DNA of 21,188 nucleotides, taken from a virus. The DNA is taken from the IMG/VR virus record IMGVR_UViG_3300025102_000352, positions 1 through 21,188 of that record; one strand, written 5' to 3'. This document shows positions 1,065 to 9,904 of the stretch, one piece after another (within the stretch, counting starts at the first letter, position 1; every line of letters starts with the position of its first letter). The translations under genes were made by a program, and so were the position numbers. The notes beneath the pieces were generated by a model that was not told the DNA's origin, searched no databases, and was given only the letters and a program-made list of their open reading frames with translations.

Positions 1065-3068
1065 TCATTTAATATTACCCCAATTTGGTCCAGATTCATA
1101 GTCAACTTTGTTTGGAACTTTTAGTTGTATTGCATTTTCCATTGTCTCTTTTATTATCTTGGCTTCTTCTTCAGTCTCAATAGAAAAACAAAGTTCATCA
1201 TGAATTTGTATGTGTGGAACTATACCTTGTTCGTATAATTTTACCATGGCCCTTTTTGTCATGTCCGCCGCAGACCCCTGAATTAATCTATTCAATGCTT
1301 TGTATGTAAAAGCAGGTCTATAGTAGTTTTCAAAATTCGAACAATGAGGATCGCTTTCTTGTGAGTTTCTTGATCTGTTTGCTAGATAATGTTCCATGGC
1401 TTCTCCTCTTTCCATGATTGGCACAGGTATAGTTTCAATAACATTCTTACCCTCTTTTTCGACGATTTGTTTACATGTAAATATGCCTTTTGAGTTATCC
1501 CATTCTTTGTTAACAGGTTCCCATTTGTCAAAACGACAGAATCTATCCTCAAGGGTATATATGTGTTTCTCTTCCTCTGCATATTTTTGTAATCCTTGTG
1601 CTAATCCTCTCACAAAAGGCACATCACTATGATATTGATTAAATAAATCTTTAGCTTCTTCAGGTTCTAATTCCAATGATCGAGCTAATTTTCCCTTACC
1701 CATACCATAGAACAGTCCTAAATTAATTGTTTTCGCTTGTTTTCTAGTTATGTTTGCCATTTTAGCGACGATGTCATGGAAGTCAGTATTGTCATCCTCG
1801 TGATATTTATCTGCAATAACCTGCGCATTTGTAAAACCACTTTTTAAAGCATAATGCACTACAAGTCTTGGTTCTTGTTGTGAGTAGTCAAATGACGCCC
1901 ACTTACAGTTTTCATCTGGTAAAAATAGTGATCGTATTTGATTCCCTTGTTCTGTTCTAGCTGGTATCTGTTGTAAATTAGGATTAGACATAGAGAATCT
2001 TCCCGTAACAGTACCACCTCTTTCAGATTTAATTTGATTTATTTCTGCGTGAATTCTACCATTATGCACAAACTTCAAAATACCATGCACAAAAGTGTTG
2101 AACAGTTTATCATACTGTCTAGCTCTTGCAATCAATTTTAAATATTTATTAGGGTGGGATTCTAAGTATTGTTTTGATAACATAGGACGCTTTGTTTTTT
2201 CCGTAATTTTATAATCTGTAATCTTTTGGTGATCTAATAATTCTTTTATGGAATCTGCAGCCCATATTGAAACCTCTATACCTGTTCGTCTTTTTACACC
2301 CTTAACAATATTAGCTTGTTTACTTTTTAGTTTATTCCCTAAAGCTTCAGATTTTTCTTTATCAACTCTTACACCTTTAAATCGCATATCAACTAAACAA
2401 GGAAACAGTTTTGTTTCTAAATCAAATATATTTTGTAACGTTTTATATTTTATTGGATTATCTTCAGGACCTGCAACTTGTATGGGCTTATCTATAATAT
2501 CTTTAAATTTTTTCCAAAGACGTAATGTAAGACTAACGTCTTGTTCTGCGTAATCTTTAACAAGATCATATGGAAGTTTATCCATGTTAGACATTGGATC
2601 AGCTATGCCATGTTCAGCAAGTGCTCTATCTTTTAAATCATACTTATATTTTTTGTCTTTTAAATAATCCGCTGATAAAGAATCTAAACTATAGCTTTTC
2701 CTATTTTCATCAATGACGGATGCCGCAATCATTGTGTCATACAAAGTACCTTTTAACATAAGACCTGTCACAGATCGAATCCAACACACGTCGTACATTG
2801 CATTGTGAAACACCTTATCAATTTTTTCGTTTTGAAATATTTTTTTATTTAAAACTTTCCAGACTAAATTAGTAGCTAGTTTAGGACCTTTATGTTTTAT
2901 TGGAAAATAAAATCTTTTGTCTCCATACGCAATTGCTATGCCACAAACAAATCCGTTGCCAATGATGGCCCCTGATCCGTGGGTCTTCAGCTTTGGATCG
3001 TATGTCTCTAAGTCGACAGCAACAACATCACCATCTTTAACGTCTATATCTGATGGACATGGAATCAC
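1065..3068 (-). CDS. polA: DNA polymerase I-like family A polymerase with 3'-5' exonuclease
   Basis: A 667-aa replicative polymerase. The N-terminal DEDD proofreading domain shows Exo I (D19, E21 in AVDLETYDP), Exo II (HNAMYD, N89/D93) and Exo III (YAEQD, Y173/D177). The polymerase domain shows motif A (DYSQQEPRL, D394), motif B (R442, K446, L450, Y454 in RKQAKTINLGLFYG) and motif C (HDE, 623-625), so all catalytic residues are present. There is no 5'-3' exonuclease domain, as is usual for phages. The residue matching E. coli Phe762 is Leu450. The stretch between motifs B and C is about 54 residues longer than in E. coli Pol I, with an extra segment around residues 505-580. The start is GTG, directly abutting the upstream TAA (TAAGTG), with GGAGG about 10 bases upstream. 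It belongs to the leftward replication operon. Confidence 0.97.
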   Translation of the reverse strand: MIPCPSDIDVKDGDVVAVDLETYDPKLKTHGSGAIIGNGFVCGIAIAYGDKRFYFPIKHKGPKLATNLVWKVLNKKIFQNEKIDKVFHNAMYDVCWIRSVTGLMLKGTLYDTMIAASVIDENRKSYSLDSLSADYLKDKKYKYDLKDRALAEHGIADPMSNMDKLPYDLVKDYAEQDVSLTLRLWKKFKDIIDKPIQVAGPEDNPIKYKTLQNIFDLETKLFPCLVDMRFKGVRVDKEKSEALGNKLKSKQANIVKGVKRRTGIEVSIWAADSIKELLDHQKITDYKITEKTKRPMLSKQYLESHPNKYLKLIARARQYDKLFNTFVHGILKFVHNGRIHAEINQIKSERGGTVTGRFSMSNPNLQQIPARTEQGNQIRSLFLPDENCKWASFDYSQQEPRLVVHYALKSGFTNAQVIADKYHEDDNTDFHDIVAKMANITRKQAKTINLGLFYGMGKGKLARSLELEPEEAKDLFNQYHSDVPFVRGLAQGLQKYAEEEKHIYTLEDRFCRFDKWEPVNKEWDNSKGIFTCKQIVEKEGKNVIETIPVPIMERGEAMEHYLANRSRNSQESDPHCSNFENYYRPAFTYKALNRLIQGSAADMTKRAMVKLYEQGIVPHIQIHDELCFSIETEEEAKIIKETMENAIQLKVPNKVDYESGPNWGNIK

Positions 3069-3365
3069 TTATTCTGCCCTCCATTTTTTATAACCATCTA
3101 CCCAAGACTCTATCTTCTCTTCTGTATCCAAATAATCTCTTTCAATAATCATTTCTATAAAATGTATCGCTTTCAATAAATCTTGTTTTTTTCCCTTATC
3201 CTGATGCCTAATTATGTATTTTATAGCACATCCCTCCGGGTATAACAACTTGTTCTCAACCACAAACTTGCTGGGCTGTATGACATACTTTTGATAATGG
3301 GATCCTCCGTGCTGTTTATTCCAAACACCTACATTGTCATTCTTGTTCTGCTTTTTACTAGCCAT
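3069..3365 (-). CDS. DUF3310 protein, T7 gp1.7-like (possible nucleotide kinase)
   Basis: A 98-aa protein with the DUF3310 layout: HGGSHY near residue 20, then IQPSKFVVENKLLYPEG, then the conserved CAIKYIIRHQDKGKKQDLLKA segment and a helix (IHFIEMIIERD). DUF3310 includes T7 gp1.7, which has been described as a nucleotide kinase acting on dGMP and dTMP. Activity of this member is inferred only from the family. Unlike many family members it has little beyond the core domain. Its ATG at 3365 lies inside the 3' end of the helicase gene (37-base overlap), with an AAGGAA ribosome site 6-7 bases upstream. Its stop touches the polymerase GTG start. The position between helicase and polymerase fits a role in nucleotide supply for replication. 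Confidence 0.85.
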   Translation of the reverse strand: MASKKQNKNDNVGVWNKQHGGSHYQKYVIQPSKFVVENKLLYPEGCAIKYIIRHQDKGKKQDLLKAIHFIEMIIERDYLDTEEKIESWVDGYKKWRAE

Positions 3366-4966
3366 AATGTTTCCTTTGATCTAGAACACGCAACAAACTT
3401 CATACGTCTTCTTACAAAGTCCTCCTCCTTTTTTGTTAGTGTTAAATCTACGACCACATGGTCAAACTCTTTACCTTTAATTGTGTGAATATTTTCAACA
3501 AATATTCTTTTCTTTTCTAGATCTCTGTTTTCACTCACTACTTTTTTTATGTATTCTCTAATTGCTGGAGAATGTGTTACGCAGATATCTTGAAAATCTG
3601 TTGTCTTTTTTACACCAGGTACTAAAAAACCACTATTAACAAGCCAGTCTAATCCATAGCTACCTCGTGATACCTCTTCTATCTTTTCACTGTTGTGGTT
3701 TGGCCCCCTGTAAGTTGGATGAACACTCTTTAGCAATTTTTTAATATTGCTAAATGGAAGTATCTCCCCCCTGTGCAAGTTAACAAACGCCCTCTGGTTA
3801 TTTATTTCGCCACCAGGATATTTAAAATCACGAACTCTACTGTTGAAAGGTATAGAGAACGGTAGACCAAGACGAACTAAGTATTTGATAATATCAATAG
3901 GTTGTCCACCACGGTAGGTGAATACAGTGGTTTGTTTTGTATTAAGTAAAATATTATCTAAATCTTCTAGATATGGATCTTGATGTAAACTAGACAACTC
4001 ATAGATCGCTCCTTCAACTCCCTCCTTTGGTAGCCACTCTCGTGTGTATCCGTAATAATCCCAAACAGGTTTAATAATACTTTTACAGTATTCGTTCACT
4101 GTACGCGGACATCTATATCCCTGCGTTAGTTCTATTTCAGGGTGAGCAAACTCTTTGTGAAATGAGTCTGGGTCTGCTCCAGAAAACTCAAATATAGATT
4201 GATCTGGGTCACCTGCTTTGTAGAATAAGTCTACGTTTTTTGACATAGATGCTTCAGCTTTTCTTTGCACAACACTAGAGTCTTGTGCTTCATCAATAAT
4301 TAAAACTTTGATATTACGACACTGGTCTTGTGCCTCTTGTGATTCTGCAAAGTCCTCAATCATATCTTGAAAATCTAATATCTTTGCAGTTCTTAAGTTA
4401 ACTTTTTGGTTTGTTTTAAAACTGTGGTAACTAGCATATAATCTTTGTAATTCATCAAGAGTATACTTGTAGTGATCTTTTTCCTCAAAAGATAACTCCT
4501 TATAAAAATCGTAAAAGGACATACCGTGATCTCTTGATCGACTCATGTACTCAAAGAATGGATGAAATTTAAATAAAGAATCAACAGACTTAAAATTTCT
4601 TTCTCGAGTAAACTTATTAAATAATGGATATAAGTTTACTAATATTTCGTAGTCTTCAATTAAAAATGCTTTACCTGTTATTTTGTTTTTACAAAACGTG
4701 TGTATGGTACTAACATGATCGTCTAGAGTTTTCTTGGACTCTTGAATTATTTTAAGCAACTCTAGGTCAGTTTTATTTTCTTTACAATACGCTTCAATTG
4801 ATTCTGGACTCTTAATCTGCTCTCGTAAATGATCCGAGGCTGCATTCGTGTGTGATATCAACTGTATATTTATTGGACTGTATGTCTCCAATAGTTCATA
4901 ATACTTACGTACTAGAGTTGTCGTTTTTCCTGTTCCAGGTGGCCCTGCTATTCTAATTTTTTTCAT
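3329..4966 (-). CDS. UvrD/Rep-like superfamily 1A DNA helicase
   Basis: A 545-aa helicase with a full SF1 motif series. Walker A is GPPGTGKTT (8-16), followed by motif Ia ISHTNAASDHL (37-47), an STIHTFC segment (86-92), Walker B IIDEAQD (223-229), motif III GDPDQSI (252-258), QGYRCP (282-287), motif V IHTIKGKEFDHV (493-504) and motif VI KFVACSRSKE (523-532). The order and spacing match UvrD/Rep/PcrA, but the protein is clearly shorter than bacterial UvrD (about 700 aa), so accessory 1B/2B regions must be reduced. It should translocate 3' to 5' on ssDNA if it follows the family. It overlaps the primase gene by 14 bases and the DUF3310 gene by 37, which suggests tight translational coupling. 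With no DnaB-type helicase in view it may be the replicative or a fork-assisting helicase (inference). Confidence 0.93.
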   Translation of the reverse strand: MKKIRIAGPPGTGKTTTLVRKYYELLETYSPINIQLISHTNAASDHLREQIKSPESIEAYCKENKTDLELLKIIQESKKTLDDHVSTIHTFCKNKITGKAFLIEDYEILVNLYPLFNKFTRERNFKSVDSLFKFHPFFEYMSRSRDHGMSFYDFYKELSFEEKDHYKYTLDELQRLYASYHSFKTNQKVNLRTAKILDFQDMIEDFAESQEAQDQCRNIKVLIIDEAQDSSVVQRKAEASMSKNVDLFYKAGDPDQSIFEFSGADPDSFHKEFAHPEIELTQGYRCPRTVNEYCKSIIKPVWDYYGYTREWLPKEGVEGAIYELSSLHQDPYLEDLDNILLNTKQTTVFTYRGGQPIDIIKYLVRLGLPFSIPFNSRVRDFKYPGGEINNQRAFVNLHRGEILPFSNIKKLLKSVHPTYRGPNHNSEKIEEVSRGSYGLDWLVNSGFLVPGVKKTTDFQDICVTHSPAIREYIKKVVSENRDLEKKRIFVENIHTIKGKEFDHVVVDLTLTKKEEDFVRRRMKFVACSRSKETLWLVKSRTRMTM

Positions 4967-6668
4967 TAGACCCTATTCTTTTTGTATTTGTAATATTTAT
5001 TGCACGTTCTTCTGGTAATTTAATTCTGGACATATCTGGGTTTTTTATTTTAAAATGAACACAAGATACTCTTTTGTCTGCTATTTCATCTTTAACGTAA
5101 CCCTTTACTTCTTTACAATCATCAGGATTCTCATTTGCAAAAGCTTGTTTTAATAAAAGAGCTATATTCCGTTCGTCTGTTTCCTCGTTTTTATCTTTTA
5201 AATATTGTCTAAGGTTCTTAAATTGAAACCATGCTTCCGTGTCACTCAAATTTTTATTTTTCTTAATATAAACACTGCCTCTTTTAACATCTATTTCTTT
5301 GTAAGAAGTTAAAGAGTCTTCAACAAAGTCATAGAATATATTTTTAAAGTTTTCGATTTTGTTTGCAGCTGCAGGAGCTTGTTCGTAATTCATGTTTGCA
5401 AGTCTTACATACTGATGTTCTAAAAACTCACCTGGTTTCATTTTCATCACTGGTAAAGGTAAAAAATATCCCATGTTAGCTAACTTATTGACATATTTAT
5501 TTTTGTCGATTAAATCTTCACCAGACATGATGACTGTAATACGTTGTGTTCCCCCATCAGATGTTTGTACATCGATGCTTTCATAGTATTTTGGTGGATG
5601 AGATTCATACTTTGTTAACGTCCCAAAACTTTCTCTTGCATCTTTTAATTCTTTTGCTTCTTCTTCATTAATACCATAGAGATTAAACTTACAACTTAAA
5701 GCGTTACAATATTTTTTTATTGCTGGTCGTTTACATAAATATTTATAATCTTTTTTAGATGCAGATTTTAAGACTGTGTTTTCTAATTCTTTATCAGGCA
5801 AAGGGTCTTCCATATACTCCGGTGTATTTATCTTTTTTAAAATTGCTTCTGCTGTATCAAGATTTTTAAAGTTCTCTGTTTTCTTTAATTCTTTCTCTGC
5901 TCTTTTTACAAACGTCATTGTGTGTAATAAAAAATCACTACGTCCAATGTCTGCTGGTATTTTTCCGTTAAGTTCTAAACAACCTTTAATGCAAGGTATC
6001 AATAGATCTTGAAGTAATGGGGTCTTGTCCTTTGTTTTTTGTTTCTTAACTATTTTTACATCTTCGGCTAGGTATGCACCTAGATCGTCTTGTGCATATT
6101 TTTTATGCATTTCAAAAAATTCCTCTAGTGTCGCAGCATCTCCATTCTCTTTCCAAGCGTACCGAGTGCCTTCTTCGTGATTGTAGTACGGCATGTTTAA
6201 CCAAGATCCACAGTCCTGGCCTTGTAGTGTTGTTTGCTGTGGATAGAGTTTATCCATTTTGTCCGCCACACCAAGTTTTGCTGCAAACTTTTTAACAACT
6301 TGTTGAACCTCGGTTGCTTGTGCAAAATTTTTCATAAATAAAAATAAATGTGCTCCACCACTTTTTGATCTAATTGGTATTAATGGTAATTTTAATTTGT
6401 GTATCTTTTGAATTATGTCTGTGTAGTCGTGGTCGTATAGATCGATGTCAATCATTCCCCACTTGCAGGTGCCGTCATCTTTCAAAGGCATAATACCAAG
6501 TCCTGGTCCTTTACCATCTAAATGATTTTGCCAAAGTTCTGTGCTTGGTTTACCTCTGATAACTAAATTCTTGCCCTGTATCTTTACAGCGGTTCGATCT
6601 TTTATTCTTTCAAAGGTGCCATACGCACGGTCTAAGCCCTCAAATATCTTTATAAATTCCTCAACCAT
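4953..6668 (-). CDS. Archaeo-eukaryotic-type primase (TOTE-like AEP) with Cys-rich C-terminal region
   Basis: A 571-aa protein. The N-terminal AEP domain covers about residues 40-175. It has the metal-binding pair D74/D76 in MIDIDLYD, the SKSGGAH segment (S103, H107), then KLYPQQTTL and GSWLNMPYYN. This matches the primase type found in TOTE conflict systems and phage primases. Residues about 220-335 look like a primase C-terminal helical region with four cysteines: C226 (IPCIKG), C312 (YLCKRP), C321 and C326 (KYCNALSCKF). These could bind zinc or an Fe-S cluster. Residues 340-571 are not recognised. No fused helicase is seen; the helicase follows as a separate gene with a 14-base overlap. 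The ATG at 6668 lacks a nearby Shine-Dalgarno and is preceded by a structured leader, so its translation may be controlled. Primer synthesis for PolA is the likely role. Confidence 0.88.
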   Translation of the reverse strand: MVEEFIKIFEGLDRAYGTFERIKDRTAVKIQGKNLVIRGKPSTELWQNHLDGKGPGLGIMPLKDDGTCKWGMIDIDLYDHDYTDIIQKIHKLKLPLIPIRSKSGGAHLFLFMKNFAQATEVQQVVKKFAAKLGVADKMDKLYPQQTTLQGQDCGSWLNMPYYNHEEGTRYAWKENGDAATLEEFFEMHKKYAQDDLGAYLAEDVKIVKKQKTKDKTPLLQDLLIPCIKGCLELNGKIPADIGRSDFLLHTMTFVKRAEKELKKTENFKNLDTAEAILKKINTPEYMEDPLPDKELENTVLKSASKKDYKYLCKRPAIKKYCNALSCKFNLYGINEEEAKELKDARESFGTLTKYESHPPKYYESIDVQTSDGGTQRITVIMSGEDLIDKNKYVNKLANMGYFLPLPVMKMKPGEFLEHQYVRLANMNYEQAPAAANKIENFKNIFYDFVEDSLTSYKEIDVKRGSVYIKKNKNLSDTEAWFQFKNLRQYLKDKNEETDERNIALLLKQAFANENPDDCKEVKGYVKDEIADKRVSCVHFKIKNPDMSRIKLPEERAINITNTKRIGSNEKN

Positions 6669-6728
6669 AAATGTCAGTGGGGCAGCTCCAGTCTCCCATC
6701 GCCGCCCCGACTTCCTCGCTACGAGAAA
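6669..6728 (-). promoter_or_regulatory. Structured RNA leader of the primase: two tandem hairpins
   Basis: This 60-base gap is GC-rich against its AT-rich surroundings. As minus-strand RNA it folds into hairpin I (UUUCUCG, loop UAG, CGAGGAA; 6728-6712) and, directly after it, hairpin II. In hairpin II, GUC and GGGGCGGC pair with GCUGCCCC and GAC, across a 14-base loop (6700-6687) and a 3-base ACU bulge (6678-6676). Each stem contains one G.U pair that would be a mismatch in plus-strand RNA, so the fold belongs to the minus transcript. Together they use 56 of the 60 bases and leave AUUU before the primase AUG. The apical loop carries GGGAG and UGGA, Shine-Dalgarno-like. There is no U-tract, so it is not a standard terminator. 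A translational operator, an RNase processing site or an origin-type hairpin is possible. Confidence 0.5.
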
Positions 6729-7487
6729 CTATAAAGTTATTCCTTGTTTTTTAGTCCCTTCTGACTCGTGTTTAGCTTCTACATTTCCTTTAGCAACGCT
6801 ATTACTAAAGTCTTTCGCTATAGTGTAAACACCTTGATCAGAGATTGGGCCAACTTTAGCAACATCCCAACCAAACCAAGTTCCCTTGTCGTTAGACTGT
6901 TGAACTGTTTTTAGTTTATAAATGTGGCTATATGTTGGTGGTGTAAACATACCATTTTTACCCTGCATTTTTAGACCCATCATCATTGAGTTCCACTTTC
7001 TACTCACTTTTAATTGAGTGGCTTTCATGGAAATCAAAGCTGTCGTTGGGTTTTTGCCGAGCACAACCACAAAGTGACTAGCAGTATTTTCAAGATAATT
7101 GCCATTAGCAAGTCTATCTTTATTAAACTTATCTCTTTGTGTTTTAGGTAGATCATCCCCAGCTTCGTATATCTTAACTGGAGCACCTTGACTCTCACCT
7201 CTATCTTGCCATTCTATGTGTTGTCTTTTGTAATACACAGGAACGACATCTATCCCCTTTTCTCCGTCATAAACTTCGTTTGTAACGGTGTTAATAATCA
7301 TGCCAGGTTCTGCCCCCTCGACATATTTTGCATTTCGCTTATTAACCTCTGGTGATAATTGGCCAAGAACTTTTAAGAACGGAAGCGCAAGGTCGTCTTG
7401 TGTGATGTTTGCAATGCCTTGACCTGCATCAGTTTCAAACATATTTGCACTTATCTCGTTTTTCTTTTTTGTTTGTACTTCACTCAT
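6729..7487 (-). CDS. Conserved phage replication-region protein, possible ssDNA-binding protein
   Basis: A 252-aa soluble protein. The N-terminal 25 residues are polar, followed by DDLALPFLKVLGQLSPEVNK, a GAEPGMI(I)NTVTNEVYDG segment and GIDVVPVYYKRQHIEW. Further on come an ASHFVVVLG strand, a KVSRKWNSMMMGLKM segment and aromatic-containing strands with THW-type spacing (GTWFGWDVAKVGP). The strand-rich pattern with conserved aromatics and its place directly upstream of a primase suggest a ssDNA-binding role. From memory, relatives in marine phages are found at this position and sometimes labelled that way. Against this, the C-terminus is not the acidic tail typical of phage SSBs such as T7 gp2.5. 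It could also be a recombination-associated protein. The gene starts 2 bases after the upstream stop, with AAGGA about 11 bases before the ATG. Confidence 0.8.
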   Translation of the reverse strand: MSEVQTKKKNEISANMFETDAGQGIANITQDDLALPFLKVLGQLSPEVNKRNAKYVEGAEPGMIINTVTNEVYDGEKGIDVVPVYYKRQHIEWQDRGESQGAPVKIYEAGDDLPKTQRDKFNKDRLANGNYLENTASHFVVVLGKNPTTALISMKATQLKVSRKWNSMMMGLKMQGKNGMFTPPTYSHIYKLKTVQQSNDKGTWFGWDVAKVGPISDQGVYTIAKDFSNSVAKGNVEAKHESEGTKKQGITL

Positions 7488-8473: not shown

Positions 8474-9904
8474 ATGAATTATAAATTTAAGACTAAGCCG
8501 TATGCACACCAACTCACTGCGTTGGAAAATTCTTGGCACAAAGAAGAGTATGCATATTTTATGGAAATGGGAACTGGCAAAACAAAAGTTCTAATTGATA
8601 ACGTAGCTATGCTTTACGATAAAGGTAAAGTAGATGGTGTATTAATTATTGCACCAAAAGGTGTGGTAGGCACTTGGTACAATCAAGAGTTGCCAAATCA
8701 CTTAGCAGATCACATAGAAAATGTGACCGTATTGTGGCAAGCTAATATTAATAAAAAACAGCAAGAAAAGTTAGATCAACTGTTCAAAACGGGTCATGAA
8801 CTTCACATACTTGTTATGAATGTTGAGGCGTTAAGTACAGATAAAGGAAAGTTATTTGCAGCTAAATTTTTAAGATCGCACAAATCAATGATAGCTATTG
8901 ATGAATCTACTACAATAAAAAATCCAAAAGCAAAGAGAACAAAAAATATTTTAAGTTTAGGTGACATTTGTAAATACAGAAGAATAATGACTGGTTCACC
9001 CGTTACAAAAAATCCGCTTGATTTATACTCACAGTGTGAATTCTTAAATCCTAGTTTATTGCAGTTTACTTCTTATTATGCATTTCGAAATCGATATGCG
9101 GAGATGAAGACTATACACGTGCATGGTCGTAGTGTGGACGTTGTACACAAGTTTCAAAATCTTAAAGAACTTTCTGAAACATTAAAGCCTTTCTCATACA
9201 GAGTTTTAAAAAAAGACTGTCTGGATCTACCAGAAAAGGTATATATTAAAAGAGAAATTAGTTTATCGCCAGAGCAAAAGAAACTATACGAGCAGATGAA
9301 AAAGCAAGCTTTTGCTACATTAAACGGCAAACAAGTGACATCAGTTACAGTGTTAACTCAGTTAATGAGATTACAACAGATAACTTGCGGACATTTTACA
9401 GCTGACGATGGTAGTATTCAACCTATACGAAATAACAGACTAGCAGAGTTGTTAGATGTATTAGAAGAGATTGAAGGCAAAGTAATTATTTGGGGACATT
9501 ATCAAGAGGATGTTAAGAACATTGTTAATATTCTAACGGACAAGTATGGTCCGGGGTCCGTGGTCAGTTATTATGGACTCACGCCACAAGAAGAACGGCA
9601 AAAGAATATTAAAAAATTTCAAGCTAATAATGGGGTGAGATTCTTGGTTGGTACTCCACAAACCGGCGGGTATGGTATCACACTTACTGAAGCAAATACA
9701 GTAATTTATTATTCTAATGGATATGATCTTGAAAAAAGAATGCAATCAGAAGACAGAGCACACAGAATAGGGCAAAAGAAAACAGTGACATACGTAGATA
9801 TTATTGCTCAAGATACCGTTGATGAAAAAATTGTCAAGTCTCTCCGTAAGAAGATTAATATTGCATCCGAAGTTATGGGTGAAGAACTAAAAGATTGGAT
9901 TTAA
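8474..9904 (+). CDS. SNF2-family DNA-dependent ATPase/helicase (SF2)
   Basis: A 476-aa protein covering both RecA-like lobes of an SNF2-type enzyme. It shows YAHQLTALENS (10-20, Q-like), Walker A MGTGKTK (32-38), motif Ia IIAPKGVVGTWYNQEL (58-73), a Walker B variant AIDEST (141-146), motif III MTGSPVTKNP (172-181), VIIWGHYQEDV (337-347), motif V VGTPQTGGYGITL (392-404) and motif VI QSEDRAHRIGQ (424-434). The protein is minimal: no accessory DNA-binding domain or nuclease is fused. Enzymes of this type usually translocate on duplex DNA or remodel protein-DNA complexes rather than unwind. It is the only plus-strand gene here, with its own promoter, and ends with a stop overlapping that of the converging 64-aa gene. 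A role in replication start, fork restart or displacing host proteins is inference. Confidence 0.93.
   Translation: MNYKFKTKPYAHQLTALENSWHKEEYAYFMEMGTGKTKVLIDNVAMLYDKGKVDGVLIIAPKGVVGTWYNQELPNHLADHIENVTVLWQANINKKQQEKLDQLFKTGHELHILVMNVEALSTDKGKLFAAKFLRSHKSMIAIDESTTIKNPKAKRTKNILSLGDICKYRRIMTGSPVTKNPLDLYSQCEFLNPSLLQFTSYYAFRNRYAEMKTIHVHGRSVDVVHKFQNLKELSETLKPFSYRVLKKDCLDLPEKVYIKREISLSPEQKKLYEQMKKQAFATLNGKQVTSVTVLTQLMRLQQITCGHFTADDGSIQPIRNNRLAELLDVLEEIEGKVIIWGHYQEDVKNIVNILTDKYGPGSVVSYYGLTPQEERQKNIKKFQANNGVRFLVGTPQTGGYGITLTEANTVIYYSNGYDLEKRMQSEDRAHRIGQKKTVTYVDIIAQDTVDEKIVKSLRKKINIASEVMGEELKDWI

Follow-up and report, generated by a model that had tools for sequence, protein, structure and literature searches.

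The T7 terminator T-phi separates gene 10 (capsid) from gene 11 (tail tube). The hairpin element described here, centered on a conserved core that we denote type I, occupies the same gene slot in Autographiviridae pelagiphages as a GC-rich hairpin after the capsid stop codon, where it would set capsid above tail expression. It differs from T-phi in that most phage cores lack a contiguous U-tract and have a conserved apical loop, and in that the core also follows a gp34-family gene and occurs in phages that have no RNA polymerase of their own. The RNase III hairpins of T7 and the REP/BIME elements are comparable intercistronic hairpins, with an internal loop and the potential to yield a protected 3' end. 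However, the core has a conserved GAGA/G.U apex and a far shorter duplex (8 bp, an internal loop, and 3 bp) than the T7-type RNase III site (about two helical turns, cut in vivo), and it occurs once per phage and generally once per SAR11 genome, whereas REP/BIME elements are dispersed in many copies per genome. The operators of T4 gp32 and gp43 are likewise structured RNAs adjoining a replication gene, but they are constantly linked to one start codon, while the core is tied to no single replication gene (an AEP primase, an unrelated open reading frame, or a tail tube gene lies downstream), follows stop codons, and is common to the host chromosome and capsid operons. The put antitermination RNA of HK022, of a class that lets RNA polymerase read through terminators, also comprises two adjacent stem-loops in phage mRNA, but the SAR11 host copy of the core lacks the first hairpin and appears to end a transcript.

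The SAR11 motifs of Meyer et al. (2009; PMC2704228) include an rhtB-associated bulged hairpin of 'Cand. P. ubique' with poly-U. It resembles the core in being a single SAR11 hairpin with a conserved loop and with poly-U after about half of its copies, but its gene context (rhtB, proC, liv) is unlike the host locus of the core; the two differ in context, though they may yet prove to be one element. The only GC-rich hairpin at the LysE-gene loci of complete SAR11 genomes was AUGCCCUCUA..UAGAGGGCAU, which lacks the core. In the LysE-gene flanks of two SAR11 genomes (L529, L530) this long conserved hairpin has flanking A and U runs, and it is perhaps the rhtB-associated element itself. Consistent with the first-pass annotation, which recognized no known RNA class, Rfam 15 yielded no match at or above the gathering threshold for the window or the host and phage loci. 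More permissive Rfam scans returned only weak, implausible matches, and literature searches recovered no description of the motif. We regard the RNA element as real and, as far as could be searched, apparently unreported in the literature.

The window, which is the whole 21,188-nucleotide stretch of viral DNA that was analyzed, has a GC content of ~0.36. The features of interest are as follows:

4953-6668, minus strand: downstream gene, an AEP-type primase (PF22548 AEP-TOTE, Pfam E 6.3e-13; phrog_21866 primase, PHROG E 1.1e-60)
6673-6711, minus strand: hairpin 2 with its flanking GUC/GAC clamp (minimum free energy fold)
6679-6708, minus strand: type I conserved core, 30 nt (covariance-model match and covariation)
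6692-6695, minus strand: GAGA tetraloop, closed by a G-C pair (6696/6691) and a G.U pair (6697/6690) (column statistics)
6712-6728, minus strand: hairpin 1, UUUCUCG-UAG-CGAGGAA, 7 bp, immediately 3' of the stop codon (minimum free energy and centroid folds)
6729-7487, minus strand: upstream gene of the Pam3_Gp34 family (PF23977, Pfam E 2.1e-72; phrog_2402, PHROG E 3.9e-71), function not assigned

The element follows the stop codon of the gp34-family gene within a 60-base gap (6669-6728, minus strand) that takes up the whole interval between the upstream TAG and the primase ATG. In minus-strand RNA, this gap folded into a pair of adjoining hairpins (-26.8 kcal/mol, z -3.32; 1 in 200 shuffles was equally good), while plus-strand RNA was unremarkable (-16.4 kcal/mol, z -1.14). 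Hairpin 1 requires a U.G pair and the long stem requires a G.U pair, both of which become A.C on the opposite strand. RNA folding therefore agrees with the first-pass annotation that the hairpins hold 56 of the 60 bases, and the strand-specific pairs and z-scores, together with covariation on the mRNA strand (below), bear out its view that the structure is shaped at the level of minus-strand RNA. Its two back-to-back hairpins also stand, but hairpin 1 begins directly after the TAG, with no base in between. Similarly, the 14-base apical loop is itself ordered, since it contains the GA/GA internal loop, the UGG/CUG pairing, and the GAGA cap. The type I core is thus laid out as an 8-bp stem (GGGGCGGC/GCUGCCCC), a GA/GA internal loop, and a UGG-GAGA-CUG apex. 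A covariance model detected the core at 42.1 bits (E 2.5e-6) as its sole match in the record to which the window belongs. The 3' flank of the hairpin is GCCCCACUGACAUUU, and the GC hairpin is therefore not directly followed by a U-tract as in an intrinsic terminator. The primase AUG indeed lacks a Shine-Dalgarno sequence, but this trait is general, as GGAG, GAGG, or AGGA was absent at positions -16 to -5 from 55 of the 58 distinct homologous gaps. As for the genes of the window, an SSB-like identity for the gp34 protein was unsupported (AlphaFold pLDDT 30; the search gave no solved relative), and a phrog_3704 protein labelled ferredoxin (auxiliary metabolic/host takeover) is encoded at 405-1055 on the minus strand, downstream of the DNA polymerase gene.

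With the exception of one frameshifted and one truncated contig and of eight distant ones (L016-L023), the gaps after the homologous upstream gene in all fetched relatives comprised a GC-rich stem with a G-[G/C]-GAGA-[C/G]-U cap. Among 48 distinct phage cores, pair -1 from GAGA was G-C or C-G (41 and 7, respectively), positions -4/-5 were mostly tandem A.G and G.A, forming a purine-rich internal loop, and the stem from -7 to -13 was Watson-Crick with many pair types. Pair -2 was G.U in all 48 phage cores and in all 41 distinct host cores, although the search expression already required that G and U; the gaps of close relatives all passed this expression, and the G.U pair is likewise present in cultured phages that were found through gene position. 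Across unrelated phages, conservation is higher in the apex than in the stem, where pairs covary freely.

The compensatory changes that the first-pass annotation proposed as a check were found both within one gene context and in pooled cores. Pooled covariation (alignment A2, 46 distinct cores) was 0.503 versus 0.144 when shuffled (0/500) and dropped to 0.073 or less when the alignment was slid; both sides change in 6 of the 10 pairs. Covariation within a single gene context was 0.346 versus 0.118 when shuffled (0/500), and RNAalifold recovered the same helices unaided. On the mRNA strand, the stems included 25 G.U versus 2 A.C cells, which are not independent of one another; this imbalance suggests that the selected strand is the mRNA strand. 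The comparative evidence shows selection acting on a predicted RNA structure. Two simpler readings of the loop were rejected: GGGAG as a hidden Shine-Dalgarno becomes GCGAG together with its partner in 15 of 46 distinct cores, and copies such as GCGAGAGUGAAACC are, by inspection, without the GGA of a CsrA-type site.

Hairpin 1 is best described as a companion hairpin with conserved predicted structure but not conserved sequence. Its region in relatives comprised wholly different sequences (e.g., CUUCC..GGAAG, AUUCAUUC..GGAUGAAU, and AUAGUC..GACUAU) that folded better than shuffles (combined p ~3e-12 for 20 representatives that are not fully independent). Some members have very short leaders in which hairpin 1 barely forms (L008-L012). 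A stop-codon hairpin also precedes the capsid-gap cores of several cultured phages.

Among the 238 viral contigs that were fetched and had a paired core, 215 had a gp34-like gene upstream. The gene downstream was more variable: in L033, L035, L268, and others the primase is replaced, and the core is kept before an unrelated open reading frame of ~490 residues with no Pfam match (L033:1070-2530, L035:2658-4145, and L268:142-1614). By eye, the N-terminus of this replacement (W..LGYTLVPC...RP) resembles Prim-Pol-type proteins. In the Autographiviridae pelagiphages HTVC031P, HTVC142P, HTVC109P, Eistla, and Bylgja the core lies between the genes for the major capsid protein and tail tubular protein A, where HTVC011P has a reduced form. 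It lies between capsid/decoration genes and tail genes in Skadi, 3' of the gp34 gene in HTVC027P, and between lysozyme and primase in HTVC019P and Jormungand. The lysozyme-primase gap of the latter two (L560, HTVC019P 8600-9300; L559, Jormungand 2400-3100) contains a strong GAAA-loop hairpin (GACGCUUCUAGUUAGAAAUAGCUAGAGGCGUUUC) followed by the type I core, and that of HTVC019P also has a tRNA-like sequence that may be an attachment site. Whole-genome scans yielded one type I match per phage. When two cores of 30-32 nt were queried by BLAST against 50,697 phage records, strong matches came only from Pelagibacter phages; a third core gave no useful match against the same records.

Chromosomal copies had a similarly narrow distribution. 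A pattern scan of 84,980 genomes identified 50 places, of which 27 (about half, by hand count) belonged to uncultured Pelagibacteraceae; some of these contigs were several hundred kb long. Of 297 SAR11-order genomes, 155 matched the covariance model of the core, almost always with a single copy. Among 240 Alphaproteobacteria, the two matches were both in SAR11 genomes and the non-SAR11 genomes showed none, in a scan whose first-look filter limits candidates in GC-rich genomes. Matches in Legionella and Brevundimonas MAGs were weak or isolated and were left out of the host-copy counts. The host copy has no hairpin 1, and the genes beside it vary between subclades. A further block precedes it:

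L351-L399 and L425-L470, ~34 nt before the GAGA loop: GAATCnnnTA host block

This block was invariant at 71 of 71 host loci and stood 34-35 nt ahead of the GAGA loop in most of them; on its upstream side, conservation weakened. GAATC is a GANTC (CcrM) site, which raises a possible connection of the host RNA with methylation or the cell cycle. A run of at least four U within 3 nt of the core was found in 31 of 54 distinct host flanks versus 1 of 58 homologous phage gaps. The arrangement points to a putative small RNA gene with a -10 box overlapping the TA and a start close to the hairpin. A chromosomal origin was considered and rejected: the host copy is roughly opposite dnaA, and the noisy GC skew suggests merely the terminus half.

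Collectively, these observations show that the core recurs in unrelated pelagiphages with little in common beyond their host and that many SAR11 chromosomes have it at a single locus. By these sequence comparisons, hairpin 2 is an RNA motif conserved in SAR11 bacteria and in the phages that infect them, and a predicted mRNA-strand hairpin located right after stop codons is shown to be specific to them. No bacterial group in the ocean outnumbers SAR11, and pelagiphages rank with the most abundant viruses, but the control of gene expression in these phages is poorly understood. A small RNA signal present both in SAR11 chromosomes and in several pelagiphage groups unrelated to one another suggests a host RNA-binding factor that they share, and the core is a short probe both for finding that factor and for recognizing pelagiphage contigs.

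The reading that we favor, at a probability of roughly 0.4, is that the core is a 3'-end element specific to SAR11 and recognized by a host factor. This factor, an RNA-binding protein or ribonuclease encoded by SAR11, would read the apex (the GAGA loop, G.U pair, and purine internal loop), and the core would thereby define or protect the 3' end of the upstream message (a gp34-like, capsid, or decoration gene), such that the upstream product outruns that of the downstream gene (primase or tail tube). At the stop codon, hairpin 1 would add a further barrier. The host copy would give rise to a very short hairpin RNA, transcribed from a promoter of its own and with its end set by the core hairpin. 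The reader is probably host-encoded because unrelated phage groups share the core and have no obvious gene for it in common. A host factor also fits Skadi-1, which carries the core and which has no phage RNA polymerase and was reported to lack terminators and riboswitches (PMC10504331).

That the core most likely sets or protects a 3' end is suggested by its stop-codon position and by two phage lineages in which relatives with high GC or another host fill the intercistronic slot with a classical terminator-like hairpin. Contigs L016-L023 (GC ~0.48) have an ordinary hairpin with a U-run in the slot after the gp34-family gene, as does Roseobacter phage CRP-114 in the corresponding slot. DSL-LC04, which has a gammaproteobacterial host, and 023Pt_psg01 have plain hairpins, and HTVC023P has a gap of only 5 bases. 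The first-pass annotation had held that homologous phages with the same gene pair but lacking the hairpins would count against it; the core is present in nearly all close relatives, but relatives with probably other hosts have plain hairpins and HTVC023P is almost gapless. Several observations argue against the 3'-end reading. A general 3'-end signal should occur at many host genes, yet there is generally one copy; a contiguous U-tract is almost absent in phages; the core of HTVC019P and Jormungand follows lysozyme, which is no known high-expression gene; and type I is missing from HTVC200P, 119P, 041P, and 025P, indicating that it is dispensable or replaceable.

The single host copy, which fits the 3'-end reading less well, keeps alive the main rival, namely that phages overproduce the host hairpin RNA within abundant messages and so titrate or occupy its putative partner (a regulator, an RNase, or a defence component). 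Such mimicry would account for the identical apex in host and phage, each with generally one copy, and for a host locus that resembles its own small RNA gene among variable neighbors, and capsid-type messages would supply a high dosage. The capsid context is late, and hence late for takeover, and the position of the core is tied to one intercistronic slot per lineage that relatives fill with plain terminators, which makes this rival unlikely on balance. We advance more tentatively than the 3'-end reading, as a proposal with somewhat less than even prospects, that SAR11 makes a hairpin RNA of ~45 nt from a GANTC-containing promoter and that unrelated pelagiphages each acquired the hairpin to exploit its putative SAR11 binding protein. 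If true, the hairpin and its binding protein would form a regulatory RNA-protein interface of a new class, in which a second phage loop (AACACAGACAA) would serve as a substitute.

That the core is instead an ordinary intrinsic terminator or attenuator with a loop conserved only by descent would agree with the U-tracts of host flanks and the terminators of relatives, but the near absence of such tracts in phage gaps and an apex conserved beyond its freely covarying stem make this quite improbable. We consider it highly doubtful that a replication protein binds the hairpin to control primase translation, as in T4, which the first-pass annotation had suggested. The gap is indeed 5' of a primase start without a Shine-Dalgarno, and the core is upstream of primase in HTVC019P and Jormungand too; the same core nevertheless persists before the unrelated open reading frame, recurs before tail-tube genes and in the host, and its phages have no known replication protein in common. 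The operator idea lacks support, since the constant neighbor of the element is a stop codon and not primase. Finally, a single-stranded DNA hairpin for replication initiation or primase loading is scarcely credible: the core adjoins replication genes in three groups and the G.U asymmetry would also suit a same-strand DNA hairpin, but contexts with no primase downstream, including capsid/tail gaps, carry the same core oriented with transcription, and the host copy, roughly opposite dnaA, has a promoter-like block and a U-tract.

The second conserved apical loop, type II, is (U)AACACAGACAA on a GC stem 3' of the capsid gene, where it takes the place of type I in sister phages:

L515 (HTVC019P 20900-21250), L517, L518, L521, L522, L525, and L538-L558: type II loci behind the capsid gene

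A pattern search of 147 SAR11 genomes recovered no type II loop. Two GGGAGACT matches, in HTVC011P and HTVC041P, were discarded because they lie inside coding genes and have no stem. The type II loop was in the capsid/tail gap in 20 of the 21 viral contigs that have it. Its carriers among Autographiviridae pelagiphages are HTVC019P, Jormungand, HTVC200P, HTVC119P, HTVC041P, and HTVC011P, the last of which has type I and type II in tandem.
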